Positions 13,749-44,099 of a stretch of 64,000 bases of DNA are shown in pieces. The stretch is taken from positions 124,001-188,000 of the forward strand of contig NZ_BBYA01000001.1 of NCBI RefSeq assembly GCF_001050275.1, in the 5' to 3' direction. The translations under genes and the position numbers were made by a program. Below the pieces are notes generated by a model, which did not search any database, was not told where the DNA came from, and worked only from the letters and a program-made list of their open reading frames with translations. The DNA is from Leptolinea tardivitalis. Lineage in GTDB: Bacteria; Chloroflexota; Anaerolineae; Anaerolineales; Anaerolineaceae. Position 1 is the first letter of the stretch. Each line of letters starts with the position of its first letter.

Positions 13749-14609
13749 ATGACGGTTGAAAGTAATGCTTTGGTGAAAGCTGAAGCACCCCGTACAGTTG
13801 TAATTAAGCCGGTGAATGGCTGGGCTGCGTTGAACCTGAAAGATCTATGGGTCTACCGCGAATTGATCTATTTTCTCACCTGGAGAAACCTGAAAGTTCG
13901 CTATAAACAAACAGCGCTGGGGGCTGCCTGGGCAATTTTGCAGCCATTCCTCACCATGGTGGTCTTCAGTATCTTCTTTGGCAATCTGGCCAAGGTTCCA
14001 TCAGATGGTGTGCCTTACCCGATTTTCTCGTATACTGCCTTGCTCCCCTGGACGCTGTTCTCAAAAGCTTTGACAGATGCCGCCCATTCCTTGGTGCAGA
14101 GCAGTCACATGATTACCAAAGTGTATTTCCCCCGGTTGATACTGCCTCTGGCCTCCATTCTTTCCGGGTTGGTGGACTTTGCCCTGGCATTCATTGTGCT
14201 GTTTGGCATGATGATATTTTATGGCATGATGCCAACGGCCAATGTCTGGACGATCATCCCCTTTGTTCTTCTGGCATTAATTACAGCCCTGGGTGTTGGT
14301 ATCTGGCTTTCAGCCATGAATGTCCTCTATCGAGATATTGGGTATGTTCTGCCTTTCCTGACCCAGTTCTGGATGACCCTGACACCAATTGCCTATCCGG
14401 CAAGTCTGCTGCCTGAAAAATGGCGGCTGATCTATGCACTCAACCCCATGACAGGGGTAGTGGAAGGTTTCCGCTGGGCCTTGCTGGGTTCGGCTGCAAG
14501 CGCGCCAACCGGAATGCTGGCGGTTTCAACAGGTATATCATTCCTGATTCTGATCACTGGTTTATATTACTTCCGTAGAATGGAACGGCGTTTTGCCGAT
14601 ATGGTGTAA
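13749..14609 (+). CDS. wzm: Polysaccharide ABC exporter, membrane subunit (Wzm type)
   Basis: ABC-2 type permease of 286 aa with about six membrane helices, the usual size of Wzm/TagG-family proteins. The cytoplasmic N-terminus carries LKDLWVYRELIYFLTWRNLK and then VRYKQTALGAAWAILQP, the family hallmark before helix 1. It pairs with the ATPase gene 2 bp downstream to flip a completed polyprenyl-diphosphate-linked polysaccharide across the cytoplasmic membrane. With no Wzx/Wzy-type proteins recognised here, the ABC-transporter route is the export path supported by the sequence. Confidence 0.93.
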   Translation: MTVESNALVKAEAPRTVVIKPVNGWAALNLKDLWVYRELIYFLTWRNLKVRYKQTALGAAWAILQPFLTMVVFSIFFGNLAKVPSDGVPYPIFSYTALLPWTLFSKALTDAAHSLVQSSHMITKVYFPRLILPLASILSGLVDFALAFIVLFGMMIFYGMMPTANVWTIIPFVLLALITALGVGIWLSAMNVLYRDIGYVLPFLTQFWMTLTPIAYPASLLPEKWRLIYALNPMTGVVEGFRWALLGSAASAPTGMLAVSTGISFLILITGLYYFRRMERRFADMV

Positions 14610-14611
14610 CC

Positions 14612-15877
14612 ATGAGCGATATAGCCATCCATGCGGAAAACCTTGGAAAACAATACATCATTGGTCAACGACCTGCCGCATATACAACCCTGCGTGAAAC
14701 ATTATCCACAGCTTTCTCGTCATCCGTAAAAAAACTGGGGGATGGACGAGGAGAAAACAACAAGTTCTGGGCTCTCAAAGATGTGTCTTTTGATGTGCAA
14801 CAGGGACAGGTACTGGGAGTCATTGGCCGAAATGGAGCGGGTAAGAGCACGTTACTCAAACTCCTCTCGCGTGTGACTGATCCGACAGAAGGAAGGGCTG
14901 TGATCAATGGCCGGGTGGGTTCACTTCTAGAAGTAGGCACCGGTTTTCACCCGGAATTGACCGGCCGCGAAAATATCTCGCTTAATGGCGCCATCCTCGG
15001 TATGAAACACTCCGAAGTTGAACGCAAATTTGATGAGATCGTTTCGTTTGCCGAAGTGGAACAATTTATTGACACTCCAGTAAAACGATACTCCAGCGGC
15101 ATGTACCTGCGCCTGGCATTTGCCGTGGCAGCACACCTCGAGCCGGAAATTCTTGTGGTGGATGAAGTTCTTGCCGTAGGGGATGCTGAATTTCAGCGAA
15201 AATGCCTTGGCAAGATGAGTGATGTGGCTCACCAGGGACGTACCGTTCTCTTTGTCAGCCATAATATGTCTGCTATTTTACGATTAACTGATGAGACTAT
15301 TGTGATTGAAAAGGGCCATCTGGCCATGCGGGCTCCGACACCACAGGCTGTGGACTACTATCTCTCGGCCGGGTTTTCACAGGAAGGACAGCGGACCTGG
15401 CTGCCGGATGAAATACCGGCGGATGCGGCGCCATTCAAACCTGTGTCCATCCGGGTTCGCAATCCTCAAGGGAATGTGGTGGATACACTCCGTTCGACAG
15501 AACCTGTGACAATCGAAATCGAATACGAACTTGATGCTCCCATAACAGGTTTGCGTGTGGGTATGTATCTGCTCAGTATGCGCGGTGAATATATTTTGAC
15601 CAGCTTTGACACGGACGATCCTGAGCAATTTGATCGGAAATCAATCCGTAAAGCCGGTCATTATGTCAGCCGATGTACGCTTCCGGCTGATATGCTAAAC
15701 GAAGGCCGTTTTATGATCGCGGTGAATGCCAGCACCTTCCGAGTAAAACGGTATTTCCAGGATGAACAGGCTCTTACGTTTAATATAGATGCTGCCGGTG
15801 CCCCCGGTATGCATTGGCCGGAACCCCGGTTGGGCCCGATTCGTCCACGTCTGACCTGGAACATTGAGGAAGTGTAA
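14612..15877 (+). CDS. wzt: Polysaccharide ABC exporter ATPase with C-terminal Wzt domain
   Basis: ATPase of 421 aa. Walker A is GRNGAGKST (about residues 73-81), the signature motif YSSGMYLRLAFA is near 160 and Walker B ILVVDEVLAVGD is near 180. From about residue 255 an extra beta-rich region of about 165 residues (FKPVSIRVRNPQGNVV to the end) matches the position and size of Wzt_C domains. In O8/O9a-type systems that domain reads a terminal cap on the glycan before export. The genes that follow, a Kdo-transferase-like GT-B protein and a methyltransferase, are natural candidates for making such a cap. The N-terminus also has the LRETLSTAF element usual in Wzt. Confidence 0.93.
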   Translation: MSDIAIHAENLGKQYIIGQRPAAYTTLRETLSTAFSSSVKKLGDGRGENNKFWALKDVSFDVQQGQVLGVIGRNGAGKSTLLKLLSRVTDPTEGRAVINGRVGSLLEVGTGFHPELTGRENISLNGAILGMKHSEVERKFDEIVSFAEVEQFIDTPVKRYSSGMYLRLAFAVAAHLEPEILVVDEVLAVGDAEFQRKCLGKMSDVAHQGRTVLFVSHNMSAILRLTDETIVIEKGHLAMRAPTPQAVDYYLSAGFSQEGQRTWLPDEIPADAAPFKPVSIRVRNPQGNVVDTLRSTEPVTIEIEYELDAPITGLRVGMYLLSMRGEYILTSFDTDDPEQFDRKSIRKAGHYVSRCTLPADMLNEGRFMIAVNASTFRVKRYFQDEQALTFNIDAAGAPGMHWPEPRLGPIRPRLTWNIEEV

Positions 15878-15879
15878 AA

Positions 15880-17502
15880 ATGACAGCGGCAGCAGCAGGA
15901 AAAGATGTTGTAAAAGAAATACTGGGTCAAATTCCCTTTACCGTTGAACTGTACTGGCTTATTCGTCAACGCGGAAAGGCCATTAACAGCCATTTCAGTC
16001 TGCGGCACCTTCAGGATGCCTTGCCTGACATGGTTCAGGATGCCCTTGAATTGCGTAAAACGGCACCGGCAGGCAAAAAGATTTTTATCTTTGCTACATT
16101 ACATTACTGGATAGAACATGCCGCTTTGACAGGTATTGCTCTGGCGGCACAGGGGCATGATGTTACCCTCGGGTACCTGGCTCAATCAGACTGGCAAAAA
16201 CCGATTTCTCGTTTTGATCTGCGCAGACAGGATCTGTATGCCCGCAAGGTACTCAGCGCGGCAGATCCTGTGATGCGGTCAATTTCATTTGTCAGTGGAA
16301 GAATACCCTTTGCACCTGTCTCGGATGAAATCAGTAAGCTGGTTCAGCAGGTGAGTGAATTTGATACCCAGTACTCTTTGCAGATAGAAGAAATCGACCA
16401 GAAAAATGAGGTCTACCAGTTGAGGAAGGAACGCAACGAAGAGGCAGCCCTCACAGCTTATTCGTATATGAAGGAAAACAAACCCGATGTGGTGATCGTT
16501 CCAAATGGGACCATTCAGGAACTGGGTGTGGTCTATCGCATAGCACGATTACTTAAAATACCTGTGACAACGTATGAATTTAGCGATCAACGCCAGCGTA
16601 TCTGGTTGGCCCAGAATAATGAGGTCATGCGCCAGGATACCGATGCCCTGTGGAGAGCCCGGCAGAACACGGCGTTGAAAGAAGATCAGTTTGAACGGCT
16701 GCGTTCCATGTTGATGGCCCGTCAACACGGCGCTATGTGGGAGAACTTCGCCCGGCAATGGCAGGGAACTCCGTCACAGGGAGGCGAAAGCGCCCGAAAG
16801 GCACTTGGTCTTGACAATCGTCCGGTTGTTTTACTGGCTACAAATGTTCTGGGTGACAGCCTGACACTCGGGCGTCATCTCTTCAGCAAAACCATGGCGG
16901 AGTGGATCAGCCGGACCGTGCAGTATTTTGCCGGTCGTCCTGATGTGCAATTGGTAATCCGCGTTCATCCGGGTGAAGTATTGACACACGGAACGTCCAT
17001 GATGAAGGTGGTTCACGAAGTATTTCCCAAATTGCCGGAACACATCCGGTTGATTGGCCCGTCGGAAAAAGTGAATACCTACGATCTGATTGAGGTGGCT
17101 GATGTCGGCTTGGTCTATACCACCACTGTCGGGTTGGAAATGGCCATGAATGGTGTGCCGGTTATTGTAGCCGCCCAGACTCATTACCGAAATCGCGGAT
17201 TTACCCTTGATCCTGATTCGTGGGTAGCCTATTACAAAACACTGGGGCAGGTTTTACAGAATCCGGCAGCTCATCGGTTGAACCGCCAGCAGGTGGAAAA
17301 AGCCTGGATGTATGCCTACCGCTGGTTCTTTGAATTCCCGCTTCCGTATCCGTGGCACCTTGTGCGGCTGTGGGACGATTACAAGGCTCACCCTCTGAAA
17401 AGTGTGGTGGGTCCGGATCATAATACTGAATTTGATGCAACATTCCGATATCTGACGGGTGAACCCATCAACTGGGTTTCCTCAGAAACCGGTCAGGAGT
17501 AA
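15880..17502 (+). CDS. KpsC/KpsS-like capsule-synthesis GT-B glycosyltransferase
   Basis: This 540-aa protein has an N-terminal helical region and a GT-B-like core. The C-terminal half contains LVIRVHPGEVL (about residue 358-368), a glycine-poor linker, then DVGLVYTTTVGLEMAMNGVP (about 408-427), the pattern of the capsule polysaccharide biosynthesis family (PF05159-like) and CDP-glycerol transferase relatives. GAGG lies 10 bp before the ATG. It sits 2 bp after wzt and 2 bp before a methyltransferase, so it may add the terminal residue recognised by Wzt. Members of this family use CMP-Kdo; a CMP-nonulosonate donor would fit the other genes here but is only inferred. Two more proteins of this general type lie at 27167 and 40634. 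Confidence 0.65.
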   Translation: MTAAAAGKDVVKEILGQIPFTVELYWLIRQRGKAINSHFSLRHLQDALPDMVQDALELRKTAPAGKKIFIFATLHYWIEHAALTGIALAAQGHDVTLGYLAQSDWQKPISRFDLRRQDLYARKVLSAADPVMRSISFVSGRIPFAPVSDEISKLVQQVSEFDTQYSLQIEEIDQKNEVYQLRKERNEEAALTAYSYMKENKPDVVIVPNGTIQELGVVYRIARLLKIPVTTYEFSDQRQRIWLAQNNEVMRQDTDALWRARQNTALKEDQFERLRSMLMARQHGAMWENFARQWQGTPSQGGESARKALGLDNRPVVLLATNVLGDSLTLGRHLFSKTMAEWISRTVQYFAGRPDVQLVIRVHPGEVLTHGTSMMKVVHEVFPKLPEHIRLIGPSEKVNTYDLIEVADVGLVYTTTVGLEMAMNGVPVIVAAQTHYRNRGFTLDPDSWVAYYKTLGQVLQNPAAHRLNRQQVEKAWMYAYRWFFEFPLPYPWHLVRLWDDYKAHPLKSVVGPDHNTEFDATFRYLTGEPINWVSSETGQE

Positions 17503-18400: not shown

Positions 18401-19408
18401 ATGGATTGGTCAAAACAGGTTGTACTCGTAACCGGTGGCACCGGATCGTTTGGAAAAAAAATGATCAAGATTTTGCTGGAAGAATACCATCCAGCAAAAA
18501 TCATTGTCTACAGCCGTGACGAATTGAAACAACATGAAATGCGTGTTGCCGGTTATGAACATCCCAGCCTGCGGTATTTTATTGGTGATGTGCGTGACCA
18601 ACAACGTCTTCGTCGGGCTTTCCACGGAGTAAGCCTGGTAGTGCATGCCGCCGCCTTGAAACAGGTTCCTGCCTGTGAATATAATCCCATGGAAGCCATC
18701 AAGACGAATATCCTCGGTTCGAGTAATGTCGTCGATGCCGCTCTGGATGCCGGTGTCGAAAAGGTGATTGCCTTAAGCACGGATAAAGCAGTCAATCCGG
18801 TAAACCTCTATGGCGCCACCAAACTGGCCGCAGAAAAACTATTTGTTCAATCCAATGCGTACGCCGGTGGGACTGCCACCCGCTTTTCCTGTGTGCGGTA
18901 TGGAAATGTTGTAGGCAGCCGCGGTAGTGTGGTGCCGATCTTCATCAAACAACGGCAAAATGGGATATTGACCATCACGGATGATCGGATGACCCGCTTC
19001 TGGATTTCGTTGGAACAGGGTGTGCGCTTCACTTTGCGTTGCTCAGAGCAGATGTCTGGCGGGGAAGTATTTGTCCCGAAAATTCCCAGCACCACCATTA
19101 CCGATCTGGCCAAAGCCATAGCTCCAGACGCCAGGATCAATATTATAGGCATCCGGCCGGGCGAAAAATTGCATGAAGTATTGATTTCGGAAGACGAAAA
19201 TCGCAATACGATTGAATTGGACGACATGTTTGTTGTTCAACCGGCGGAAGCCTATTGGTTTGGCCGTGAGTGGGAAAAACGGGGCAAACCACTTCCTTCA
19301 GATTACCGGTATGCCAGTAATACCAATACAGAATGGCTGAATGTTGACCAGATTCGGGAACTGGTGGCGCCATTTGAGAATAATGGAGATTCGGGCAACG
19401 CAGAATGA
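18401..19408 (+). CDS. pseB: UDP-GlcNAc 4,6-dehydratase (inverting), PseB-like
   Basis: SDR of 335 aa that should convert UDP-GlcNAc to UDP-2-acetamido-2,6-dideoxy-L-arabino-hexos-4-ulose. The cofactor loop is TGGTGSFGKK (about residues 11-20). The PseB/FlaA1/CapE pattern follows closely: IVYSRDELKQHEMR, RYFIGDVRD, HAAALKQVPACEYNPMEAIK, ALSTDKAVNPVNLYGATKLA (catalytic Y-x3-K) and RYGNVVGSRGSVVP. GGAG sits 6 bp before the start. In pseudaminic acid synthesis this is step one; the aminotransferase, acetyltransferase and hydrolase (PseC, PseH, PseG) are not in the window. It could instead feed the next gene, a 4-keto reductase, towards UDP-L-RhaNAc-like sugars. Confidence 0.92.
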   Translation: MDWSKQVVLVTGGTGSFGKKMIKILLEEYHPAKIIVYSRDELKQHEMRVAGYEHPSLRYFIGDVRDQQRLRRAFHGVSLVVHAAALKQVPACEYNPMEAIKTNILGSSNVVDAALDAGVEKVIALSTDKAVNPVNLYGATKLAAEKLFVQSNAYAGGTATRFSCVRYGNVVGSRGSVVPIFIKQRQNGILTITDDRMTRFWISLEQGVRFTLRCSEQMSGGEVFVPKIPSTTITDLAKAIAPDARINIIGIRPGEKLHEVLISEDENRNTIELDDMFVVQPAEAYWFGREWEKRGKPLPSDYRYASNTNTEWLNVDQIRELVAPFENNGDSGNAE

Positions 19409-20331
19409 ACCGACTATTGGTCACCGGAGCGAGCGGATTGCTGGGAATCAACCTGGCACTGCGCGAATCAGCGCACCGGGATGTGATCGGTGTTACTCAT
19501 TCGCATAGTTTAACTGGAGTGCCATTTAACGTCAGGCAGGTCAATTTGACGGCTGATGGTGCGATTGCCCGGATGATCGAAGAAATCCGACCGGATGTGG
19601 TAATCCACTGTGCGGCCATGGCGGATATCGATAGTTGTGAAAAACAACCGGAACAGGCAGAGCTGGTCAATTCAGTGGTGCCGGGAGTGCTGGCGGATAT
19701 TTGCGACAAACAGGATATCCGTCTGGTGCATCTTTCTACCGATGCCGTGTTTGACGGCACCAGGGGAGATTATCTGGAAACTGATAGTCCACACCCGTTA
19801 TCGGTGTATGCCCAAACCAAACTGAAAGGTGAACAGGCTGTTTTAGATGCCTGTCCAGATGCCATTGTAGCCCGGGTGAATTTTTACGGCTGGAGTCTGA
19901 CGGGAAAAAGGAGCCTGGCGGAATTTTTTTACAATAATCTTTCCGCCGGTCATACGGTTAATGGCTTCACCGATGTGGAATTCTGTCCGTTATTTGTCAA
20001 CCACCTGGCTGACTTGTTGATGAGCCTGGCCGATAGTTACCACACTGGATTGTTCCATGTGGTAAGCCCTGTATCGTTGAGTAAATATGAATTTGGCTGC
20101 CGAATCGCCAATGCCTTCGGTTTTGATGATCATCTCATCAATCCGGTATCTGTGAAGAATGGCGGACTTGTCGCCCGGCGTTCACCCAAATTGACGCTCA
20201 ATACAGACAAATTAAAAGATGCTCTTCAGATCGTACTTCCCGGCGTGGAAGAGGGCATCCATGCTTTCTTCGAACAATACCTGACCGGTTTCCCACGAAA
20301 ACTACAGGAATACCTGAAGAGAAGTGAATAA
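19405..20331 (+). CDS. RmlD-like 4-keto-sugar reductase (SDR)
   Basis: Reductase of 308 aa in the dTDP-4-dehydrorhamnose reductase fold: TGASGLLGINLAL (about residues 6-18), VVIHCAAMADIDSCE, STDAVFDGTRG and catalytic YAQTKLKGE (about 134-142). It overlaps the PseB-like gene by ATGA, and the pair recalls the dehydratase/reductase pairs that make UDP-2-acetamido-L-rhamnose-type sugars (WbvB/WbvR, WbjB/WbjC). It lacks the extra cupin domain of CapF/WbjC. No RmlA, RmlB or RmlC genes are in the window, which argues against plain dTDP-rhamnose synthesis. The exact substrate is inferred from the neighbour. Confidence 0.8.
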   Translation: MNRLLVTGASGLLGINLALRESAHRDVIGVTHSHSLTGVPFNVRQVNLTADGAIARMIEEIRPDVVIHCAAMADIDSCEKQPEQAELVNSVVPGVLADICDKQDIRLVHLSTDAVFDGTRGDYLETDSPHPLSVYAQTKLKGEQAVLDACPDAIVARVNFYGWSLTGKRSLAEFFYNNLSAGHTVNGFTDVEFCPLFVNHLADLLMSLADSYHTGLFHVVSPVSLSKYEFGCRIANAFGFDDHLINPVSVKNGGLVARRSPKLTLNTDKLKDALQIVLPGVEEGIHAFFEQYLTGFPRKLQEYLKRSE

Positions 20332-20347
20332 CTACGGAGGAACTTCT

Positions 20348-21418
20348 ATGGAAATCCGCATTGGAAATCATGTGATTGGAAATGACCACCCCACTTATTT
20401 CATCGCTGATATTGCCGCCAACCATGATGGAAGCCTGGAAAGAGCCAAAATGCTTATCCGTCTGGCAAAAGAGGCAGGAGCCGATGCGGCCAAGTTTCAG
20501 AATTTTCAGGCTCCGAAAATCGTCTCAGACTATGGATTCAAATCCATGGGTGGGCAGGTATCTCACCAGGCAAAATGGAAAAAAACAGTTTTTGAAGTAT
20601 ATAAAGACGCTTCGGTTCCGTTTGAGTGGACACCGGTTTTGAAAGAGGAATGCGATAAGGTGGGGATTGATTATTTCTCATCACCGTATGATTTTGAAGC
20701 CATTGATTACCTCGATCCGTTTGTTCCCGCTTACAAAATTGGTTCAGGTGATATCAATTGGCCCGAGGCACTGGAACACATGGCCCGGAAGAATAAACCC
20801 GTGCTTCTGGCAACTGGTGCATCTGATATCGGTGATGTGCAACGGGCCGTCCACATTTTACTGGCTATCAATCCGCAGCTTGTGTTAATGCAGTGTAATA
20901 CCAATTACACTGCCAGCCTGGAAAACTTCAATCACTTGCACCTTCGGGTACTGACCACTTATCACAGCATGTATCCTGACCTGATTCTGGGACTTTCTGA
21001 TCACACTCCCGGGCATGCTTCCATACTGGGGGCGGTGGCTCTGGGTGCACGGGTCATTGAAAAACATTTTACCGACGATAATTCACGCGAAGGTCCTGAT
21101 CATGCATTTGCCATGAACCCGAAGAGCTGGGAGGATATGGTTGTGAACACCCGCCAGTTGGAGCGGGCGCTGGGATCCGGTGATAAGTTTGTGGCCGAGA
21201 ATGAAAAACAGACGGTATATCTGCAGCGCCGCTGCCTGAGGGCAGCTCGCGACTTAAAGGCTGGAGACGTGATTTCTCGTGAGATGATCGATGTGCTGCG
21301 TCCGGTTGCTCCCGGGGCCATATTGCCGAACGAACTGGATGCCGTAATCGGTACGCGATTGCTGAATGATCTTCCTGCCGGCAAGGAAATCTGCTGGACA
21401 GACCTGGGTCGGGCATAG
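20348..21418 (+). CDS. neuB: NeuB-family nonulosonate synthase with SAF domain
   Basis: This synthase of 356 aa condenses phosphoenolpyruvate with an N-acetylated hexose to give a sialic-, pseudaminic- or legionaminic-acid-type sugar. The start at 20348 is fixed by GGAGG 7 bp upstream; an earlier ATG at 20324 lies in the previous gene. The TIM barrel carries DIAANHDGSLERAK (about residues 18-31), AAKFQNF, YKIGSGDINW, LMQCNTNY, LGLSDHTPG and VIEKHFTDD, the last two holding metal-binding His residues. The C-terminal SAF (antifreeze-like) domain is present from about residue 290 (RRCLRAARDLKAGDVI ... GTRL). This is the full-length architecture, unlike the second copy at 37901. Confidence 0.9.
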   Translation: MEIRIGNHVIGNDHPTYFIADIAANHDGSLERAKMLIRLAKEAGADAAKFQNFQAPKIVSDYGFKSMGGQVSHQAKWKKTVFEVYKDASVPFEWTPVLKEECDKVGIDYFSSPYDFEAIDYLDPFVPAYKIGSGDINWPEALEHMARKNKPVLLATGASDIGDVQRAVHILLAINPQLVLMQCNTNYTASLENFNHLHLRVLTTYHSMYPDLILGLSDHTPGHASILGAVALGARVIEKHFTDDNSREGPDHAFAMNPKSWEDMVVNTRQLERALGSGDKFVAENEKQTVYLQRRCLRAARDLKAGDVISREMIDVLRPVAPGAILPNELDAVIGTRLLNDLPAGKEICWTDLGRA

Positions 21419-21434: not shown

Positions 21435-22523
21435 ATGCGCATTCTGTATGCTTCGCGGGGGTTGGGAGTTCACGATGAACGGTTTTTGCGGGTTCTTTCC
21501 GCATCTGACCATGATGTGTTCTTCCTGCCGTTGACCCGATATACTGCTCCGGGATTGGCACTTCCGGGAAATATCCGTCAGATATTTATCCCGACAGAAA
21601 AAGAGACAACCACCCATACTATCGCCAGTTTGTTGGATCGATGGCAGATAGACCTGGTGCATGCCGGTCCGATGCATGATGTAGCCCGGGCTGTGGCATT
21701 CAGTGGATTCAGCCCGCTGGTCAGCATGTCGTGGGGATTTGACATGCTGTGGGATGCCGAGCGTGAATTACTCATCTGGATGGCTATTAAAGAAACTTTG
21801 GAACATACCACGGTTTTCTTCTGTGATGCCAATAGTGTGAAAACCAAAGCCATTAATGAATATGGGTTCGATCCCGAACGGATCGTTGTTTTTCCATGGG
21901 GGGTTGATCACAACCTGTTCTATCCAACTGGACGGCGCGCCGGCAGGTCTGCCAATGAACCGCTGCGCCTTTTTTCCAACCGCACCTGGGAAGATCAGTA
22001 TGGTGTTGACGTACTGGTTGATGGGCTGATCCGAGCCGGTAAGACCGGCCTACAATTTAAAGCTGTGCTGGCAGGGGATGGTTCCCTGAAAGCAACATTG
22101 CAGGAAAAGATCAAGAATTCTCCGATCTCCCGGCAGGTGCAATTTGTGGGGCGGATCTCACAGGAGGATTTACCCGGTTATTATAACGAAGCTGATGTAT
22201 ATATCAGTGCATCGCATGTTGACGGTTCATCACTTTCCCTTATGGAAGCCATGTCCTGCGGGGCCGTGCCGTTGGTCAGTAATATTCCCAGCAACCGGGA
22301 ATGGGTTGAAGATGGGGTATCTGGATATCTATTTGAAGATGGTGATGACGTTCAACTGGCAGCCCGTCTGCTGGCATTGGATAAAGTCAGGCAGAATATG
22401 CCGGAGATCAGCCGGCGTGCCCTGGCCATAGCTGAGGAACGGGCGGATTGGAATAAGAATCAGAAGATCATGCTGAATGGATATGAACTGGCCATGCGGC
22501 TTCACCACGGAAATGTGTCATGA
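21435..22523 (+). CDS. Glycosyltransferase family 4
   Basis: GT4 enzyme of 362 aa. The C-terminal half shows VVFPWGVDHNLFYP, FVGRISQEDLPGYYNEADVY and SHVDGSSLSLMEAMSCG (about residues 267-283, E-x7-E type donor site), then GAVPLVSNIPSNREWV. The N-terminal half (RILYASRGLGVHDERFLRVL) lacks the usual Gly-rich GGAE loop, and HAGPMHDVARAV takes its place. GAGG 5 bp before ATG supports the start. It follows the NeuB-family gene closely, so it may act near the nonulosonate residue; its donor cannot be read from sequence. Confidence 0.85.
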   Translation: MRILYASRGLGVHDERFLRVLSASDHDVFFLPLTRYTAPGLALPGNIRQIFIPTEKETTTHTIASLLDRWQIDLVHAGPMHDVARAVAFSGFSPLVSMSWGFDMLWDAERELLIWMAIKETLEHTTVFFCDANSVKTKAINEYGFDPERIVVFPWGVDHNLFYPTGRRAGRSANEPLRLFSNRTWEDQYGVDVLVDGLIRAGKTGLQFKAVLAGDGSLKATLQEKIKNSPISRQVQFVGRISQEDLPGYYNEADVYISASHVDGSSLSLMEAMSCGAVPLVSNIPSNREWVEDGVSGYLFEDGDDVQLAARLLALDKVRQNMPEISRRALAIAEERADWNKNQKIMLNGYELAMRLHHGNVS

Positions 22524-24481
22524 TCTCGAGGAAACAACTCACCCGTTGGGATGGATTACTTCTCATCCTTCTGTTTATTGCCGGTTTTTGGTTGACAGCG
22601 ATATCGGTCAATAAACCGGTGCATCCGGCAGAAGATGCCGCCATGCTGATGCGGTATTCCCAGCATTTGGCACAGGGTTACGGCATTGTCTGGAACATCG
22701 GTCAGCCGCCGGTGGATGGAGCTACGGATTTTCTCTTCATGGTAGTGCTGGCTGGTTTCTACGCCCTGGGCAACGGGCTTGAGTCCACAGTGCTCTGGGT
22801 TTGTGGCATCGCTCATATTCTCACCACCATGATTGTTTATTTTGGCATCCGCCGATATTTCAAGGGTGGCATTCTTTCGGCTGTGTTGACGGCTGTTTTC
22901 CTGCTATTGGGTTCAGGGTTGAGATATACCGAAGCCTGTTTTGGTACACCCTTTTTTGCCTTTTTCTGTGCCTTGAGCTGGCTTTTAGCCCAGATGGTTG
23001 TGGAACAGCCCCGGTCAATTGGGCGGGCTGCGGCATTTTCCCTGAGCTGCTTGCTAATGGGTTTGACTCGGCCTGAAGGCGTGCTGGTTGCCGGGTTTAT
23101 GCTGGCTGCCATTCTTTTCAAGTTGGGATGGAAGCTGTCAAAACGGTTAATCCTTATATTCTGCAGCATGTTCCTGTTTCTTGGCGGAGCCTATTTCCTG
23201 TGGCGCTGGAATTACTTTGGCTATCCACTACCCAATCCGTTTTATAAAAAAGGGGGAGGACGGTTATACCCGGACAGCCTGAGTGAAGCGGTAAAAGGTG
23301 TTCTGGAAATGAGCTTCCCCTTCTGGTTGATCTATGCTGCCGGAATTCTCGGCATGATCTGGGCGGGATGGAACAAATTCGTGTTGCAGGCAAATTGGTT
23401 CGGCGTGCTGAGTGAATTTATCAAACGCTTCTTCATTCCTGAAAAACGCAGGATATTGGTATCGGTGACAAGAACGATAGGAATGATCCTGTTGCTGGCC
23501 TGTCTGATTGGCCTGTTCAGACAATCTTCCAGTTTGCATGCGCAACTTATCTTTGGACGTTATTCCGCATCCTACGCCGGTTTGCTGACAGCTCTTCTGG
23601 TGACCGGAATGCTGGCTCTGTTTGTGGAAAGATGGCTGCCGGTGAATAACCCGCACACAATCAAAACGGATACCATGAACCCACTGGCAATGGATTGGAA
23701 AAATGGCATTCGTTCCACAATTTATGTTCTCATCCCGGTTGTGGGATTTACTCTGATGTGGGTGCTGCTATCCAACGAGATGAATTACCTCTGGCGGTTC
23801 CAGTATCCTATTCTGCCAGTCATTCTGATGAGTTGGCCGCTCATTGCGATTGACCTCTGGGCCGGTTTGAGTCTGCCTGAACCTGAAACATGGTCACCAT
23901 CAATCAGAGGTTTGGTCATACTTGCCGGATTAGTTCTTGGCATTGGATTGGCATTTTCACAGACTGATCGCTGGCAGATCACCTATCAATCGGATGGGCG
24001 TTATGAGGTGGCTCAATACCTGTCTCAATATGCAGACAAGCACTATACCCTTGCTTCCACGGAGGCAGGTCTGCTGCCTCTATACTCCGGATGGCAGGCT
24101 GTGGATACGTGGGGATTAAACGATGCCTGGATTGCCCACAATGGTGGGATAACAATGGATTATCTTGCCAGGGTAAACCCGGAAGTGATTATGTTCCATG
24201 CTGATTTTTCACCGGTCAACCCGCAAAAAGAACCTGCAGATGCCTGGGGTTCCATGCTGAACATACTGGATACCTATGCCCGCGATCATCAGTACATTCT
24301 TGCTGCTGCTTATGGTGACAACCCGGTGGATACCCATTATTATTATGTTCGCCCTGATTTTCCTGAAAGCCGCGATATTGTGACATTCATCCAGAGTCTG
24401 GATGGTGGTGCATACCATTATGGGGCGCATACACTGGATTACAACAAATTAACCTGGAAGAAGGATACGGATGCCAAATAA
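22520..24481 (+). CDS. GT-C-like polytopic membrane glycosyltransferase
   Basis: Integral membrane protein of 653 aa with about a dozen helices. The first extracytoplasmic loop has AEDAAMLMRYSQHLAQGYG (about residues 37-55), with an ED pair placed like the catalytic acids of GT-C enzymes, followed by PPVDGATDFLF, which resembles AftB-like and other bacterial GT39/GT83-like proteins. After the last helix a soluble tail of about 150 residues (from RYEVAQYLSQYADKH) includes STEAGLLPLYSGWQAVDTWG. It overlaps the upstream GT4 by ATGA and the downstream cytidylyltransferase by 11 bp. The donor is probably a polyprenyl-phosphate sugar; the assignment rests on topology and loop motif only. Confidence 0.65.
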   Translation: MISRKQLTRWDGLLLILLFIAGFWLTAISVNKPVHPAEDAAMLMRYSQHLAQGYGIVWNIGQPPVDGATDFLFMVVLAGFYALGNGLESTVLWVCGIAHILTTMIVYFGIRRYFKGGILSAVLTAVFLLLGSGLRYTEACFGTPFFAFFCALSWLLAQMVVEQPRSIGRAAAFSLSCLLMGLTRPEGVLVAGFMLAAILFKLGWKLSKRLILIFCSMFLFLGGAYFLWRWNYFGYPLPNPFYKKGGGRLYPDSLSEAVKGVLEMSFPFWLIYAAGILGMIWAGWNKFVLQANWFGVLSEFIKRFFIPEKRRILVSVTRTIGMILLLACLIGLFRQSSSLHAQLIFGRYSASYAGLLTALLVTGMLALFVERWLPVNNPHTIKTDTMNPLAMDWKNGIRSTIYVLIPVVGFTLMWVLLSNEMNYLWRFQYPILPVILMSWPLIAIDLWAGLSLPEPETWSPSIRGLVILAGLVLGIGLAFSQTDRWQITYQSDGRYEVAQYLSQYADKHYTLASTEAGLLPLYSGWQAVDTWGLNDAWIAHNGGITMDYLARVNPEVIMFHADFSPVNPQKEPADAWGSMLNILDTYARDHQYILAAAYGDNPVDTHYYYVRPDFPESRDIVTFIQSLDGGAYHYGAHTLDYNKLTWKKDTDAK

Positions 24482-25244
24482 ACAACACACGGTCGCCCTG
24501 GTGCAGGCACGAATGAGTTCGAGCCGTCTGCCGGGTAAAGTGCTCAAAGAAATTAATGGTAAACCAATGATTGCACGGGTGGTTGAACGAACCCGTCTGG
24601 CAAAAAGTGTAGATTATGTGGCCGTGGCCACAACCACCGATGCAGCTGATGATGCCGTTGAAGCCTGGTGCAGGGAATCACAGACGGCCTGCTACCGCGG
24701 CAGTATGTTCGATGTGTTAGACCGCTTTTATCAGGCAGCCAGATTGTACGCTGCCGATATTGTTGTACGGGTAACGGCAGACTGCCCGGTGATTGACCCC
24801 GGAGTGATTGATGAAACCGTAGCTGCATTCCATGCTCAGGGTGCTGATTTTGCCGCCAACCGCCTGCCGCCTCCCTGGGGACGCACATATCCGATTGGAT
24901 TGGATACCGAAGTCTGCCTGTTTTCTGCCCTGGAACGAGCCTGGAAGGAAGCCCGCGAAGCTCATGAGCGCGAGCATGTTATGCCATATCTCTACGATAC
25001 TCCCGGCCGGTTTAAAATTTACCAGTTGAACACCACTCCTGATTATGGATCACTACGCTGGACGGTGGATACTCCCGAGGATCTTGATTTTATCCGGCGG
25101 GTGTTTGAATATTTACCCGATAAGGAAAATTTCTCATGGCTGGATGTGCTGGCCGTGACACAGGCACATCCTGAATTGAATGCCATCAATGCCGAGATCA
25201 AACACAAAGTGTTCAACGATGTGGATGCGAGGATGACACATTGA
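24471..25244 (+). CDS. spsF: SpsF-type cytidylyltransferase
   Basis: This 257-aa nucleotidyltransferase of the CMP-sugar synthetase superfamily carries the N-terminal signature VQARMSSSRLPGKVLKEING (about residues 10-29), then RVVERTRLAKSVDYVAVATT and VVRVTADCPVIDP, which match SpsF/PseF-like proteins (PF02348). It is one of three cytidylyltransferase-like genes in the window. AAGG lies 6 bp before the ATG. Downstream GT genes follow by TTGA overlap. It may activate an acidic sugar with CTP, but some SpsF relatives in surface-glycan loci have no proven substrate. Confidence 0.83.
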   Translation: MPNKQHTVALVQARMSSSRLPGKVLKEINGKPMIARVVERTRLAKSVDYVAVATTTDAADDAVEAWCRESQTACYRGSMFDVLDRFYQAARLYAADIVVRVTADCPVIDPGVIDETVAAFHAQGADFAANRLPPPWGRTYPIGLDTEVCLFSALERAWKEAREAHEREHVMPYLYDTPGRFKIYQLNTTPDYGSLRWTVDTPEDLDFIRRVFEYLPDKENFSWLDVLAVTQAHPELNAINAEIKHKVFNDVDARMTH

Positions 25245-26149
25245 TTTCCATTTTCACTGCACCTAAACCATTCACCAATCCGCATATCGCCATTATTCAG
25301 CGAAATGCCATTCGTTCATGGAAAGCTGTTGGCGCCGAAGTCATTCTGGTGGGTGATGATGAAGGTGTGGCAGAGGCAGCCCGTGATTTGGATGTCATCC
25401 ACAAACCTGAAGTGGTCCGAAACGCGTACGGTACACCTAAAATTGATTCTATCTTTGCACTTGGCCGAGAGGCGGCCAGCGGTGAAATGCTGGCGTACAT
25501 TAATACAGATGTGATGCTGCTTCCGGATTTCATGGACACTGCCATGCGGCTGGCTGAACAGGAAAAACAATTTCTAATCATTGGTCAACGTTGGGACCTG
25601 GATGTACGCCAGGAACTGGATTTTTCTGATGGCTGGGTTGACCGACTTCAGAAGGATATTAAAACCCGGGCACGCCGGCATCCACGCGGCGGAAGCGATT
25701 ATTTCCTTTTCCCCCGGCAGGTTTTTACATACATTCCACCGTTTGCCATCGGCCGGGCGGGTTGGGACAATTGGATGATTTATGAAGCCCGGCAGCGCGG
25801 CTGGAAGGTTATCGATGGCAGTGCTGACATCAATATCATCCATCAGGATCACGATTACAGTCATCTTCCTGGCGGCAAACCGCATTACAAACTACCTGAA
25901 TCATTTGAAAATGTCAAAGCAGGCGGAGGCAATCGGACAATATTTACACTGGATGATTGCAATTATGTTTTGAAAGAGCAAAAATTGGAACGTTTCCCCG
26001 GTTCCTGGAAAAAATTCTGGCGTGAGGTGGAGATCATACCTCTGGTTCGCTGGCATTCTTCATTTTTTACAAATATTTTCTTTGCTTTGTTTCACCCGAA
26101 AAAGGCCTATCGCGAATGGCGTTCCCAACTGTCTTCCCGGCAGGCGTGA
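25241..26149 (+). CDS. Predicted GT-A-like glycosyltransferase
   Basis: This 302-aa cytoplasmic protein begins ISIFTAPKPFTNPHIAIIQR and contains VILVGDDEGVAEAA, then YINTDVMLLPDFMD (about residues 86-99), where the N-T-D takes the place of the metal-binding DxD of GT-A enzymes, and IGRAGWDNWMIYEARQRGW (about 169-187), a usual acceptor-side element. This plan resembles family 2-related proteins found in plants and bacteria. The start is a TTG that overlaps the cytidylyltransferase stop (TTGA). It has no clear Shine-Dalgarno, consistent with coupling. Function beyond sugar transfer is not readable. Confidence 0.65.
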   Translation: MISIFTAPKPFTNPHIAIIQRNAIRSWKAVGAEVILVGDDEGVAEAARDLDVIHKPEVVRNAYGTPKIDSIFALGREAASGEMLAYINTDVMLLPDFMDTAMRLAEQEKQFLIIGQRWDLDVRQELDFSDGWVDRLQKDIKTRARRHPRGGSDYFLFPRQVFTYIPPFAIGRAGWDNWMIYEARQRGWKVIDGSADINIIHQDHDYSHLPGGKPHYKLPESFENVKAGGGNRTIFTLDDCNYVLKEQKLERFPGSWKKFWREVEIIPLVRWHSSFFTNIFFALFHPKKAYREWRSQLSSRQA

Positions 26150-35844: not shown

Positions 35845-36666
35845 ATGACAAATATTCTTGATAAGTTTCGTATGGATGGACAGGCGGCAGTGGTTACCGG
35901 TGGCGCCGGCCTGTTGGGGAAACAATTTAGCCGAACACTGGCAGAGGCTGGTGCCGGGGTTGTAGTGGCAGACTTGAATGCCGAAGCGGCAGAAGCTGTG
36001 GCTGCATCCATCCGGAAAGATGGCTATAAAGCGATCGGCGTGGGCGTTAATGTGGTGGATAAGAAATCTGTGAATGCTCTTGTGGTTACCACCATTAAAG
36101 AATATGGACGGCTGGACGCGTTGGTTTGCAGTGCCGCCATGGATCCGAAATTCGATCCCGAACATGCCGGAGAGAATCGCAATTCATTTGAAGATTACCC
36201 GGTGGAATCTTTCAGACAGGCCCTGGATGTAAATTTGACCGGTCTATTCCTGTGCGCCCAGGCAGCCGTCATCCCTATGTTGAAACAGGATCATGGCTCG
36301 ATCATCAACATCTGCTCAACCTACGGGTTGGTCGGACCTGATCAGCGGATTTATATCAAACCGGACCAGCCGCAGCAGTTCAAACCGGTGTATTACTCTG
36401 TGACAAAATCAGGGGTTCTTGGTCTGACACGTTATCTGGCGACATACTATGCCGGCCGGAATATTCGGGCCAATGCCTTAACCCCCGGTGGTATTTATAA
36501 CAATCATGATGAATTGTTTGTCAAGAATTATTCTGCCCGCACAGTACTGGGGCGGATGGCTCACATAGATGAAATGAACGGTGCCGTGTTGTTCCTGGCT
36601 TCCGACGCTTCATCGTATATGACCGGTTCCAATCTGGTGGTAGATGGGGGTTGGACAGCATGGTAA
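35845..36666 (+). CDS. Short-chain dehydrogenase, PtmA-like
   Basis: SDR of 273 aa. The cofactor loop is TGGAGLLGKQF (about residues 18-28), NNAG is replaced by CSAAMD, and the catalytic S-Y-K set is in ICSTYGL and VYYSVTKSG (about 178-186). The N-terminus NILDKFRMDGQAAVVTGGAG and the substrate loop around YIKPDQPQQFKPV resemble PtmA-type oxidoreductases of legionaminic acid clusters. The next two genes encode a CMP-nonulosonate synthetase and a NeuB-family synthase, as in ptmA-ptmB-ptmC. AGGA lies 7 bp before the ATG. The exact oxidation step is not established here. Confidence 0.82.
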   Translation: MTNILDKFRMDGQAAVVTGGAGLLGKQFSRTLAEAGAGVVVADLNAEAAEAVAASIRKDGYKAIGVGVNVVDKKSVNALVVTTIKEYGRLDALVCSAAMDPKFDPEHAGENRNSFEDYPVESFRQALDVNLTGLFLCAQAAVIPMLKQDHGSIINICSTYGLVGPDQRIYIKPDQPQQFKPVYYSVTKSGVLGLTRYLATYYAGRNIRANALTPGGIYNNHDELFVKNYSARTVLGRMAHIDEMNGAVLFLASDASSYMTGSNLVVDGGWTAW

Positions 36667-37898
36667 AGCAGCCGGAAGTACTGGCGATCATTCCCGCACG
36701 TGGCGGTTCCAAGGGGATCCCCCGGAAGAATATCAAGGAATTTGCCGGATATCCGTTGATCGCCTACAGCATTGCGGCGGGATTGCATGCTGAAACTGTA
36801 ACCCGCACCATCCTGTCAACAGATGACGAAGAAATCGCCTCTGTTGCCCGGCAGTGGGGTGCGGAGACGCCCTTCCTGCGGCCGGCCGAGCTGGCCTCTG
36901 ACGGAGCTCTGGATTTGCCGGTTTATCAACATGCTTTGAAGTGGCTGGAAGAAAAAGAAGGATATAAACCGGATGTTGTGGTTCAACTGCGGCCGACATC
37001 TCCGGTCAGACCGGTGGATTGTGTAGATCGAGCTGTGACCATGCTTTTGCAAAACCCGGAAGCTGATTGTGTCCGCGGGGTTGTGCCTGCCGGGCAAAAC
37101 CCATACAAAATGTGGCGGCGCGATGAGAAAAGCGGCCAGATTTCCCCATTGCTGCATGTTCCGGGTATTCCGGAACCTTTCAATGCTCCCCGGCAGATCC
37201 TACCACCCGTATACTGGCAGACGGGTCACATTGATGCCATCCGGCCGGAATCAATTTTGGTCAAAAATTCCATGACCGGCGATCGGATTCTGGGTATGGT
37301 AATTGATCCCCAGTACACCATCGATATTGATACTCCCAAGGATTGGGCTCGCTCCGAATGGCTGGTCTGGCATGGAGGATTGCAGTTTGTTGACCCGGCC
37401 AAAAAACCGCGCAGGCAGATGCCTGAAAAGATAGATTTGATGGTCTTTGATTTCGACGGCGTTATTACCGATAACCGCGTCTGGGTGGATGAGAACGGAT
37501 TTGAACGGGTAGCCGCCAACCGTAGTGACAGCCTGGGAGTTCGACTGTTATCCGAAGCCGGGCTGGAGATGATGATCCTCTCGATGGAAGTCAACAAAGT
37601 GGTGGCTGCACGGGCGAAAAAGATGGGAATTGCCGCATTACATGGAATTAATGATAAAGTTACTACCCTGCGCAATTTGCTGAAAGATAGACAAATTCCG
37701 GCTGAAAATGTGATCTATGTAGGCAACGATACCAATGATCTGGACTGTTTCCGACTGGTCGGGTATGCTGTGGCAGTGGGAGACGCCCAGCCAGAGGTCA
37801 AACGGGCGGCAGATCTGGTATTATCACAAACCGGTGGTCATGGTGCAGTTCGAGAAATCTGTGACCTCATTTTACAGACAAGAAAACTCAGAGGCTGA
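36660..37898 (+). CDS. CMP-nonulosonate synthetase fused to KdsC-like HAD phosphatase
   Basis: This is a bifunctional protein of 412 aa. Residues about 1-235 form a CMP-sialic/legionaminic acid synthetase: IIPARGGSKGIPRKNI (about 9-24), ILSTDDEEIA, VVQLRPTSPVRP and the late ENNIDIDTPKDW-like YTIDIDTPKDW. Residues about 258-410 form a HAD phosphatase of the KdsC type: DFDGVITDNRVWVD (about 263-276) with both Asp residues present and GNDTNDLDC near 354. The same domain order occurs in vertebrate CMAS. The ATG at 36660 overlaps the upstream stop by 7 bp; a TTG three codons earlier is less likely. The phosphatase could act on a 9-phosphate intermediate, or may be structural. Confidence 0.88.
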   Translation: MVKQPEVLAIIPARGGSKGIPRKNIKEFAGYPLIAYSIAAGLHAETVTRTILSTDDEEIASVARQWGAETPFLRPAELASDGALDLPVYQHALKWLEEKEGYKPDVVVQLRPTSPVRPVDCVDRAVTMLLQNPEADCVRGVVPAGQNPYKMWRRDEKSGQISPLLHVPGIPEPFNAPRQILPPVYWQTGHIDAIRPESILVKNSMTGDRILGMVIDPQYTIDIDTPKDWARSEWLVWHGGLQFVDPAKKPRRQMPEKIDLMVFDFDGVITDNRVWVDENGFERVAANRSDSLGVRLLSEAGLEMMILSMEVNKVVAARAKKMGIAALHGINDKVTTLRNLLKDRQIPAENVIYVGNDTNDLDCFRLVGYAVAVGDAQPEVKRAADLVLSQTGGHGAVREICDLILQTRKLRG

Positions 37899-37900
37899 AA

Positions 37901-38776
37901 ATGGCAAGAGAGCTAAAAATTGGTAACAAACTTATTGGCGATGGACATCCCACCTATGTGGTGGCAGAAATTGGCATCAATCACAACGGCGATATTGAAA
38001 ATGCTAAAAAGATGATCGACGCGGCCAAACATGCCGGTGTTGATGCTGTTAAATTCCAGAAACGCACACCGGAGTTATGTGTGCCGGATAATCAAAAAAA
38101 TCAAATGCGGGAAACACCCTGGGGTTACATCACTTATCTGGATTACCGCTACAAAGTGGAATTCGGTGAAAAGGAATACCGCGAAATTGACCGATATTGC
38201 AAGCAAGTGGGAATGGATTGGTTTGCCTCTGTTTGGGATGAAAACTCCGTTGATTTCCTGGAAGCCTTTGACCCAATATGCTATAAAATCCCTTCTGCTT
38301 CGCTAACGGATTCAAATTTGTTGAAGAAAATTCGTTCCACTGGCCGCCCCGCCATTCTCTCGACGGGTATGTCAACCATGGAACAGATTCGAAAAGCGGT
38401 TGGTGTGATCGGGTTGGAGAAATTAATCATTACACACGCCACCAGCACATATCCCTGTGAACCGGAAGAATTGAATTTACGCATGATTGATACTCTGCGT
38501 AAAGAGTTTCCCTGCCCGATTGGGTATTCAGGGCATGAGGTCGGACTGATCCCATCGGTACTGGCTGCCGGTATGGGCGCCTGCATGGTGGAACGTCATA
38601 TCACCCTGGACCGGGCCATGTGGGGCGGCGACCAGGCTGCCTCTGTTGAACCCAGTGGATTTGAAAGACTGGTAAAATATATCCGCGTTGCTGAGCAATC
38701 ACTCGGCGATGGCGTCAAGAAAGTTTACGATAGTGAACTTCCATCTTTGAAAAAACTTCGCCGGGTTCAAGAATAA
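37901..38776 (+). CDS. NeuB-family nonulosonate synthase lacking the SAF domain
   Basis: Synthase of 291 aa, covering only the TIM barrel. Motifs are AEIGINHNGDIENAKK (about residues 22-37), AVKFQKRTPEL, YKIPSASLTD, ILSTGMSTMEQI, ITHATSTYPC, IGYSGHEVG (metal His, about 207-215) and VERHITLDRAMWG (second His, about 228-240). The chain ends RRVQE shortly after the barrel, where full-length NeuB proteins continue into a SAF domain of about 60 residues. The gene is intact, with a normal stop and the next gene 26 bp later, so this is not a frameshift visible here. AGAGG precedes the ATG. A legionaminic-type product is suggested by the PtmA-like neighbour. Confidence 0.87.
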   Translation: MARELKIGNKLIGDGHPTYVVAEIGINHNGDIENAKKMIDAAKHAGVDAVKFQKRTPELCVPDNQKNQMRETPWGYITYLDYRYKVEFGEKEYREIDRYCKQVGMDWFASVWDENSVDFLEAFDPICYKIPSASLTDSNLLKKIRSTGRPAILSTGMSTMEQIRKAVGVIGLEKLIITHATSTYPCEPEELNLRMIDTLRKEFPCPIGYSGHEVGLIPSVLAAGMGACMVERHITLDRAMWGGDQAASVEPSGFERLVKYIRVAEQSLGDGVKKVYDSELPSLKKLRRVQE

Positions 38777-43434: not shown

Positions 43435-44099
43435 GCCTTGATCACGTTGTTGCCCTGGTTCCCATGCGTCACCATTCCCAACGAGTGCCCGGGAAGAACT
43501 ATCGCTTGCTGGCCGGAAAACCGCTGTACCATCATATTGTGGAATCCCTGTTACAGTGTCCGGAAATTTCTAAGATTGTTATAGACACAGACAGTCCGGA
43601 TATAAAGGAAGGTGTTGCCAGCCAGTTCCCTTCTGTGGATGTATTGGAACGACCCGAACATCTGCGGGCTGATGATATCTCGATGAATGAAGTGCTGTTG
43701 TACGATTCTTCCCGCTATCCGGCTGACCTCTACCTGCAGACCCACAGCACCAATCCTATGTTAAAAGTTGAATCCATTCGTTCGGCTGTAAAATTTATGC
43801 AGGCAAATTACCCGGCATACGATAGCCTGTTTTCAGTAACAAAAGTCCAGCGTCGGTTGTATGATGCCCTTACCCGGCCGATCAACCATAACCCGAATAT
43901 TCTGCTGCAAACGCAGGATTTGCCCCCCGTTTATGAAGAGAACTCCTGTATCTATATTTTCACCCGCGAGACAATTGAAAAGCGGCGCACCCGTATAGGC
44001 GATCGTCCGTATATGTTTGTTCTGGATGGCGCTGAAGCCTGGGATATTGACAACGAGCTGGATTTCCGCATCGCAGATCTGATGATGCATGCCCGGTAA
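43431..44099 (+). CDS. Acylneuraminate cytidylyltransferase (CMP-nonulosonate synthetase)
   Basis: This single-domain enzyme of 222 aa carries ALVPMRHHSQRVPGKNYRLL (about residues 8-27), the Arg-rich CTP-binding loop, then LLQCPEISKIVIDTDSPDI, LQTHSTNPMLK and VYEENSCIYIFTRE (about 163-176), and the late metal-site segment AWDIDNELDFRIADL (about 204-218). This is the full set expected of NeuA/PseF-type enzymes. GGAGG precedes the ATG, which overlaps the GT2 stop (ATGA). It is the third cytidylyltransferase in the locus, which suggests that more than one CMP-activated acidic sugar is made. Confidence 0.88.
   Translation: MSLDHVVALVPMRHHSQRVPGKNYRLLAGKPLYHHIVESLLQCPEISKIVIDTDSPDIKEGVASQFPSVDVLERPEHLRADDISMNEVLLYDSSRYPADLYLQTHSTNPMLKVESIRSAVKFMQANYPAYDSLFSVTKVQRRLYDALTRPINHNPNILLQTQDLPPVYEENSCIYIFTRETIEKRRTRIGDRPYMFVLDGAEAWDIDNELDFRIADLMMHAR

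Follow-up and report, generated by a model that had tools for sequence, protein, structure and literature searches.

A PseB, RmlD and NeuB gene set as a candidate route to a fusaminic-acid-like nonulosonate in Anaerolineae

A stretch of 64,000 nucleotides from Leptolinea tardivitalis (contig NZ_BBYA01000001.1, positions 124,001 to 188,000; hereafter, the window) contains three overlapping genes: a PseB-type inverting dehydratase, an RmlD-type reductase and a NeuB-family synthase. Considered together, the data favor assigning this trio to successive steps of one pathway, which would lead to a 7-hydroxylated, 9-deoxy nonulosonate resembling fusaminic acid; we place the probability of this reading near 0.58. 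The gene set and the fixed co-occurrence of its members are well supported, and the three genes behave as a single unit. We infer all reactions after that of PseB, together with the step order, the stereochemistry and the product.

Conservation of the gene set

The window comes from a genome of 3.69 Mb in 15 contigs that is 99% complete, and the trio is embedded in a long plus-strand run of surface-glycan genes that includes a Wzm/Wzt exporter. A preliminary description of this DNA had placed PseB-like, RmlD-like and full-length NeuB genes at 18401-21418; open reading frames occupy exactly those coordinates, and their families agree (Table 1). The start of rmlD overlaps the end of pseB by 4 bases, and the start of neuB overlaps the end of rmlD by 8. 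The best structural match of the dehydratase is 2gn4, a uridine diphosphate N-acetylglucosamine (UDP-GlcNAc) C6 dehydratase that we take to be H. pylori FlaA1 (E 1.8e-112), with FnlA/CapE-type entries at ~2e-70; on the model for FnlA proper it scores 256 bits, under the cut-off of 730. The reductase stays below the NCBIfam cut-off for the dTDP-4-dehydrorhamnose reductase RmlD (TIGR01214, 192.8 bits vs 224.05). Its nucleotide-motif glycines (G8/G11/G14) and residues S111-T112-D113, Y135 and K139 are invariant across 24 aligned members. The window NeuB is under both of its equivalog cut-offs (NeuB_NnaB, 267.7 vs 399.65; PseI, 246.8 vs 340.25).

Conservation was followed in two samples. The first comprises the best 80 of at least 587 confirmed loci, ranked and picked by NeuB similarity; their titles name Anaerolineae taxa, counting genera that we take to belong there, or just Chloroflexi/Chloroflexota. 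Truncation at contig ends depresses the neighbor-gene counts in this set. Because that set was chosen through NeuB, each trio gene was also searched for separately across a sample of 249 Anaerolineae genomes. For NeuB, 22 of these genomes matched; 18 were kept as the clade (at least 63% identity) and 4 at 36-37% were dropped. For PseB, 46 matched and 26 were kept at 62% or above; dropped here were 19 matches at 41-50% and G166 (61%, a partial match in a genome with PseG). The nearest NeuB relatives in the genome collection are Leptolinea metagenome-assembled genomes and Leptolinea sp. HRD-7, at 87-91% identity.

Complete PseB, RmlD and NeuB reading frames stand in one order on one strand in 74/80 loci; counted singly, RmlD is present in 79 and PseB in 74. 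Among the cultured carriers of the trio are Anaerolinea thermolimosa (L097), Pelolinea submarina (L101) and Longilinea arvoryzae (L068). Five of the six incomplete loci are truncated by a contig end: in L032, L089 and L104 part of PseB remains where the contig starts, and L045 and L096 begin too near the genes.

In the genome sample, all 18 genomes with the NeuB clade also carry matching PseB and RmlD. They account for all but one of the 19 genomes with an RmlD match, are all among the 26 with PseB, and span 10 genera in 4 families. Fisher p values for co-occurrence are 1.7e-26 (NeuB-RmlD) and 1.4e-21 (NeuB-PseB), although these ignore shared descent and so are not true probabilities. The trio lies on one contig in 16/18 genomes, with gaps ranging from an overlap to 3.9 kb. 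In the other two, G172 and G248, it is spread over three contigs each, with PseB beside wzm/wzt and RmlD beside another short-chain dehydrogenase/reductase (SDR) gene and unrelated genes; all three genes are nevertheless kept. That the set is retained where synteny is lost speaks more strongly than anything else for a shared pathway. A further genome of that genus, G185, is absent from the NeuB, RmlD and PseB match lists alike.

PseG exceeds its cut-off in 6/249 genomes and in none of the 18 trio genomes. Of the 8 PseB genomes that lack the trio, 7 match PseG at 140 bits or more. A canonical control locus from the same class, L160, carries PseB (507.5 bits), PseC (469), PseG (242.1) and PseI (509.9), all above cut-off; its GNAT (45.3) is below the one for PseH. 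NeuC exceeds its cut-off in one trio genome, G061, beside a different NeuB; in G172 and G248 its model gives no match whatsoever.

Proposed reaction sequence

If the trio constitutes one pathway, the sequence would comprise: dehydration of UDP-GlcNAc by PseB to UDP-2-acetamido-2,6-dideoxy-L-arabino-hexos-4-ulose; reduction of the 4-keto group to a hydroxyl by the RmlD-like enzyme; removal of UDP from the reduced sugar by a further, putative enzyme; and condensation of the free sugar with phosphoenolpyruvate by NeuB. The reductase would take the place of the aminotransferase PseC, making PseH unnecessary. Its product is likely UDP-6-deoxy-L-AltNAc, the nucleotide sugar of 2-acetamido-2,6-dideoxy-L-altrose, or a C3 or C4 epimer of it; because a reductase of this kind can also epimerize C3, as the Megavirus pair Mg534/Mg535 shows, several hexose epimers may be considered here.

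In NeuB chemistry, C4 of the hexose becomes C7 of the nonulosonate; the expected product would thus have a 7-hydroxyl instead of a 7-amino group and would still be 9-deoxy. This predicts a 5-acetamido-3,5,9-trideoxy-nonulosonate with a hydroxyl at C7 and none at C9, as in fusaminic acid; its calculated monoisotopic mass is 293.11, compared with 309.11 for Neu5Ac and 334.14 for Pse5Ac7Ac. Next, the cytidylyltransferase at 24471-25244 would convert it to a cytidine monophosphate (CMP) sugar, a KpsC-like transferase would add the activated residue to a glycan, and Wzm/Wzt would export that glycan. We infer the activation and transfer steps from family and fold.

The NeuB clade and its active site

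A tree of 36 rows places the 19 NeuBs sampled from trio loci, with a Maritalea NeuB inside, on one side of a branch with support 100/100; five PseI-type enzymes form a separate group, also 100/100. A number of the reference branches are long, and the tree does not resolve the Neu group. NeuBs from Halorussus, a Rhodobacteraceae plasmid, Streptomyces and Synechococcus fall outside the trio clade in this tree. Canonical Pse clusters of the same class (L160, L162 and L163) carry a different NeuB clade with a Phe-type site, KIASFE or KVASFE.

Active-site columns were counted over 93 clade sequences, in which the window NeuB appears twice (window and L002) and some loci possibly share a species. 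Asp occupies the position of nmNeuB Glu25 in 92/93 (reference rows: Glu in 16/17, Asp in Maritalea). Ala replaces Ser154 in 91/93, a change shared among the reference rows only by Maritalea. All 93 have Tyr at Phe112, Thr at 184 and a retained Arg314. In the available part of PMC6795526, the list of active-site residues does not include Ser154, and Arg314 reportedly contributes to positioning of the N-acetyl group (PMC6795526). Judged from the alignment, retention of Arg314 fits an N-acetylated substrate. A role for Asp247 and the HFTD/HFTL difference were dropped as substrate markers, the alignment having given no support.

The Maritalea plasmid NeuB is 54% identical to the window NeuB and is its sole close relative among the matches listed (60 of 88 plasmid records). 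For RmlD, the plasmid search outside Chloroflexota covered the best 40 of 394 records, and other cases may exist.

Middle steps and sources of N-acetylmannosamine

The preliminary description had held that the genes for the middle steps of pseudaminic acid synthesis are missing. Family scans of neighboring genes at 12766-47749, some with Pfam or NCBIfam only, contain no pseC, pseG or pseH. The claim stands for PseG and PseC in whole-genome profile searches: the best PseG match reaches 25.4 bits (cut-off 153.55), and none of seven PseC matches exceeds the cut-off (best 329.5 vs 423.5). The PseH scores do not bear it out: the best GNAT of the genome, ~26 kb upstream, scores 90.4-90.6 bits against a cut-off of 93.1, whereas the GNAT of the canonical L160 cluster reaches just 45.3, so a PseH may be present. 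The genome search that the same description had called for therefore returned no pseG above cut-off and weak pseC- and pseH-like genes in another cluster. The top PseC-like gene on the window contig, which encodes a DegT aminotransferase scoring 293 bits, lies ~22 kb upstream of pseB and adjoins a GFO/IDH/MocA gene, a pairing that we take as a sign of a 3-amino sugar pathway; other PseC-like matches below cut-off lie on contigs C8 and C11. The sugar cluster upstream of the window on contig C1 (L014:10444-15789) comprises a WecB-type epimerase, a PIG-L deacetylase-like gene, the PseH-like GNAT, WbqC, GFO/IDH/MocA and DegT.

Sources of N-acetylmannosamine (ManNAc) were also sought in the window's genome. 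The best NeuC match scores 103.3 bits (cut-off 235.9), and GlcNAc 2-epimerase (PF07221) has no match. Epimerase_2 has three matches above cut-off: two strong ones, which pass the cut-off for the non-hydrolyzing WecB, and a 381-aa reading frame (34.4 bits) that by eye resembles a glycolipid glycosyltransferase. No enzyme releasing ManNAc from UDP-ManNAc was identified.

Contrary evidence and alternative explanations

Several observations weigh against a single pathway. The main contrary evidence in the sequence is Gly at position 133 in 92/93 clade NeuBs, where Pse synthases have Phe. In the part of PMC7371886 available (section 7; numbering one lower), Gly marks Neu and Leg synthases and Phe marks Pse synthases. 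Gly is tied there to a ManNAc-like C2 geometry, at a position mostly, not strictly, conserved (PMC7371886). On alignment grounds, Gly133 argues against an L-altro, or Pse-precursor, C2 geometry, and it weighs against the favored product because 6-deoxy-L-AltNAc does not have the ManNAc-like arrangement. NeuB also needs a free sugar, and no UDP-hydrolase was found among the conserved locus genes. The reductase clade is near the dTDP-rhamnose family, and one ortholog (L143) clears the rmlD cut-off, at 225.8 vs 224.05. Locus L081 has RmlD and NeuB with no PseB match, an RmlD-like match (37%) occurs in genome G209, which lacks the NeuB clade, and the co-occurrence figures carry no correction for shared descent. 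On the Maritalea plasmid, PseB is ~8 kb upstream of NeuB, and the RmlD match in the two stretches examined is weak and partial (29%, E 1e-4). A GlcNAc-2-epimerase-family gene and another cytidylyltransferase lie ~10 kb from that NeuB; given this epimerase-family gene, the Maritalea NeuB could use ManNAc, which counts mildly against the proposal.

The foremost alternative separates the trio: PseB and the reductase would supply a UDP-6-deoxy-L-HexNAc (RhaNAc, AltNAc or TalNAc type) to a glycosyltransferase, and NeuB with the cytidylyltransferase would make a separate nonulosonate, both residues entering one repeat unit. The chemistry has a precedent, since in the available part of PMC4691112 the Megavirus pair Mg534/Mg535 couples an inverting dehydratase to a reductase that also epimerizes C3, giving UDP-L-RhaNAc, the N-acetyl-L-rhamnosamine donor (PMC4691112). 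The window holds such a dehydratase and RmlD-type reductase pair (UDP-L-RhaNAc or L-FucNAc type), and the many transferases of the locus, the lack of a recognized UDP-hydrolase in the cluster and the Neu/Leg-like Gly of NeuB all suit this arrangement. Against it, no ManNAc source was found: NeuC is above cut-off in 1/18 trio genomes, the window's genome has no GlcNAc 2-epimerase match, and both strong Epimerase_2 proteins are of the non-hydrolyzing WecB type. Neither does it account for retention of the trio as a set when dispersed. On balance we consider it possible but doubtful.

The preliminary description had posed much the same choice. Its first option, a reductase diverting the PseB product to a UDP-L-RhaNAc-type sugar with NeuB fed from elsewhere, is weakened by the presence of the trio in 18/18 genomes even if dispersed, by 17/18 lacking NeuC above cut-off and by the window's genome giving no match to GlcNAc 2-epimerase. 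Its second, a nonulosonate without a C4-derived amino group, fits better, having a natural precedent in fusaminic acid, though here no UDP-hydrolase was found and the NeuB substrate is a prediction. Direct use of the UDP-sugar is also conceivable, so the two options need not exclude each other.

A second alternative, which we judge improbable, is a Neu5Ac (N-acetylneuraminic acid)-type or other nonulosonate built from ManNAc freed from WecB-made UDP-ManNAc, with the trio linked by locus descent only. Two WecB-type epimerases in the window's genome and a NeuB score slightly higher on NeuB_NnaB than on PseI speak for it; yet the enzyme that would free ManNAc was not identified, G172 and G248 keep NeuB without a 2-epimerase model match, and PseB and RmlD accompany NeuB even when dispersed. 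Ordinary pseudaminic acid, with the upstream DegT and GNAT genes (293 and 90.4 bits) acting from their own cluster, is very improbable: PseG is not above cut-off in the genome, the DegT gene adjoins GFO/IDH/MocA, NeuB is outside the PseI clade and under its cut-off, and in the same class L160 gathers PseB, PseC, PseG and PseI above cut-off in one cluster.

Neighboring genes and the UDP-releasing step

The trio and its conserved neighbors are collected in Table 1.

Table 1. The trio and conserved neighboring genes in the window
Feature	Position	Strand	Evidence	Loci of 80
ABC exporter pair Wzm/Wzt (C-terminal binding domain in Wzt)	13749..15877	+	PF01061; PF00005+PF14524	62 and 63
GT-B glycosyltransferase, candidate CMP-nonulosonate transferase (KpsC-like)	15880..17502	+	AlphaFold pLDDT 90	67
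PseB-type inverting UDP-GlcNAc 4,6-dehydratase (5-inverting)	18401..19408	+	335 aa; TIGR03589 493.2 bits vs cut-off 407.75	
RmlD-type SDR reductase, proposed 4-keto reductase on the PseB product	19405..20331	+	308 aa; PF04321 200 bits	
NeuB-family nonulosonate synthase, full-length with SAF domain, clade apart from PseI	20324..21418	+	364 aa; PF03102 + PF08666	
GT4-type glycosyltransferase adjoining neuB	21435..22523	+	PF00534	77
CMP-sugar cytidylyltransferase, proposed product activation	24471..25244	+	PF02348 119 bits	68
GT-A-fold glycosyltransferase downstream of cytidylyltransferase	25241..26149	+	model pLDDT 94	62

The conserved cytidylyltransferase is presumably SpsF-like. For the model of the GT-B protein upstream of pseB, VIA-align places the KpsC 3-deoxy-D-manno-octulosonate (Kdo) transferase first (Z 15.0, 276 aligned, root-mean-square deviation 4.5), with trehalose-type GT-B rows within 1; PseG is not among the listed rows, which carries no weight. 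The best Foldseek E-values are for UDP-GlcNAc 2-epimerases, at a low TM-score. With KpsC first by VIA-align, this protein was set aside as a hydrolase and is taken as a probable transferase. For the protein downstream of the cytidylyltransferase, all 50 Foldseek rows listed are glycosyltransferases, which we take to be GT-A. Neither it nor the GT4-type protein is convincing as the missing hydrolase.

In relatives with genes between rmlD and neuB, the three scanned encode a PMT-type membrane protein (L082) and a NUDIX hydrolase (L100:9432-9968 and L138:9834-10421). The latter is a weak lead for UDP removal: an enzyme of the NUDIX type could cleave a UDP-sugar, but the gene occurs in only these two of the loci examined, and it was rejected as the general UDP-releasing enzyme.

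Further sugar-related genes vary among loci. Between the GT4 and cytidylyltransferase genes, L100:12172-14445 was scanned and encodes an AAC(3)-type N-acetyltransferase and a DUF4910/M28-like protein, with look-alikes in L102, L135, L145 and L146; the window has a 653-aa protein in this position, and both domains also occur near the Maritalea plasmid NeuB. This pair may swap an N-acyl group. A second nonulosonate module, at 35845-38776 of the window, consists of an SDR, a fusion of a PseF-like cytidylyltransferase with a KdsC-like phosphatase, and a 291-aa NeuB that has neither a SAF domain nor Arg314. Its composition suggests a 9-phosphate route, such as one through Kdn-9-P (the 9-phosphate of the nonulosonate Kdn), and the fusion is present in 11/80 relatives. 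Since a third cytidylyltransferase lies at 43431-44099, several CMP-sugars may be made from the window locus. A variant cluster in L164:2528-9692 and L165 combines PseB, a DegT aminotransferase and a NeuB of 287-289 aa with no recognized SAF domain and a very long branch; L164 also has a PseG-like gene (141.7 bits).

Relation to known pathways

The pseudaminic acid pathway (PseB, PseC, PseH, PseG, PseI, PseF) shares with this locus PseB as first enzyme, a NeuB-family synthase and a cytidylyltransferase. In contrast, an RmlD-type reductase here stands beside PseB where PseC is expected, PseG is not found in the genome, and NeuB is of another clade with Gly for Phe. The Neu5Ac pathway (NeuC, NeuB, NeuA) has in common the NeuB family, the Gly at the C2-specificity position and Arg314; it differs in NeuC, which is not above cut-off here, PseB and the reductase being present instead. 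The succession of inverting 4,6-dehydratase and 4-keto reductase recalls the Megavirus Mg534/Mg535 pathway to UDP-L-RhaNAc, in the available account of which a NeuB step is not described.

In predicted make-up, as opposed to genes or stereochemistry, there is a likeness to fusaminic acid, whose structure is known from Fusobacterium nucleatum ATCC 25586 and which matches the 7-hydroxy, 9-deoxy nonulosonate predicted here. By its title, a 2017 report by Vinogradov reportedly describes an O-chain of strain 25586 with 2-acetamido-2,6-dideoxy-L-altrose and a 5-acetimidoylamino-3,5,9-trideoxy nonulosonate. This O-chain would thus hold 6-deoxy-L-AltNAc, the very precursor predicted for the window, although C5 bears an acetimidoyl group in Fusobacterium. 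In the part of the literature that was searched, no gene work on fusaminic acid was found, and no paper on nonulosonates of Chloroflexota was found among the matches listed.

Implications

Nonulosonate type is usually predicted from gene schemes for Neu, Leg and Pse, and the reductase variant would be a fourth. If the one-pathway reading is correct, a genome holding PseB and NeuB can be mistaken for that of a pseudaminic acid producer. That reading also points to a further UDP-sugar hydrolase yet to be named. More broadly, we give even odds to a dedicated trideoxy-nonulosonate route, combining PseB, an RmlD-type 4-ketoreductase, the Asp25 NeuB clade and a CMP transferase, in many Anaerolineae surface-glycan loci. 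It would be an alternative to PseC/PseH/PseG and would give a fusaminic-acid-like sugar its first candidate genetic basis; fusaminic acid itself would gain candidate genes, and the gene pattern could serve in searches for the route elsewhere.

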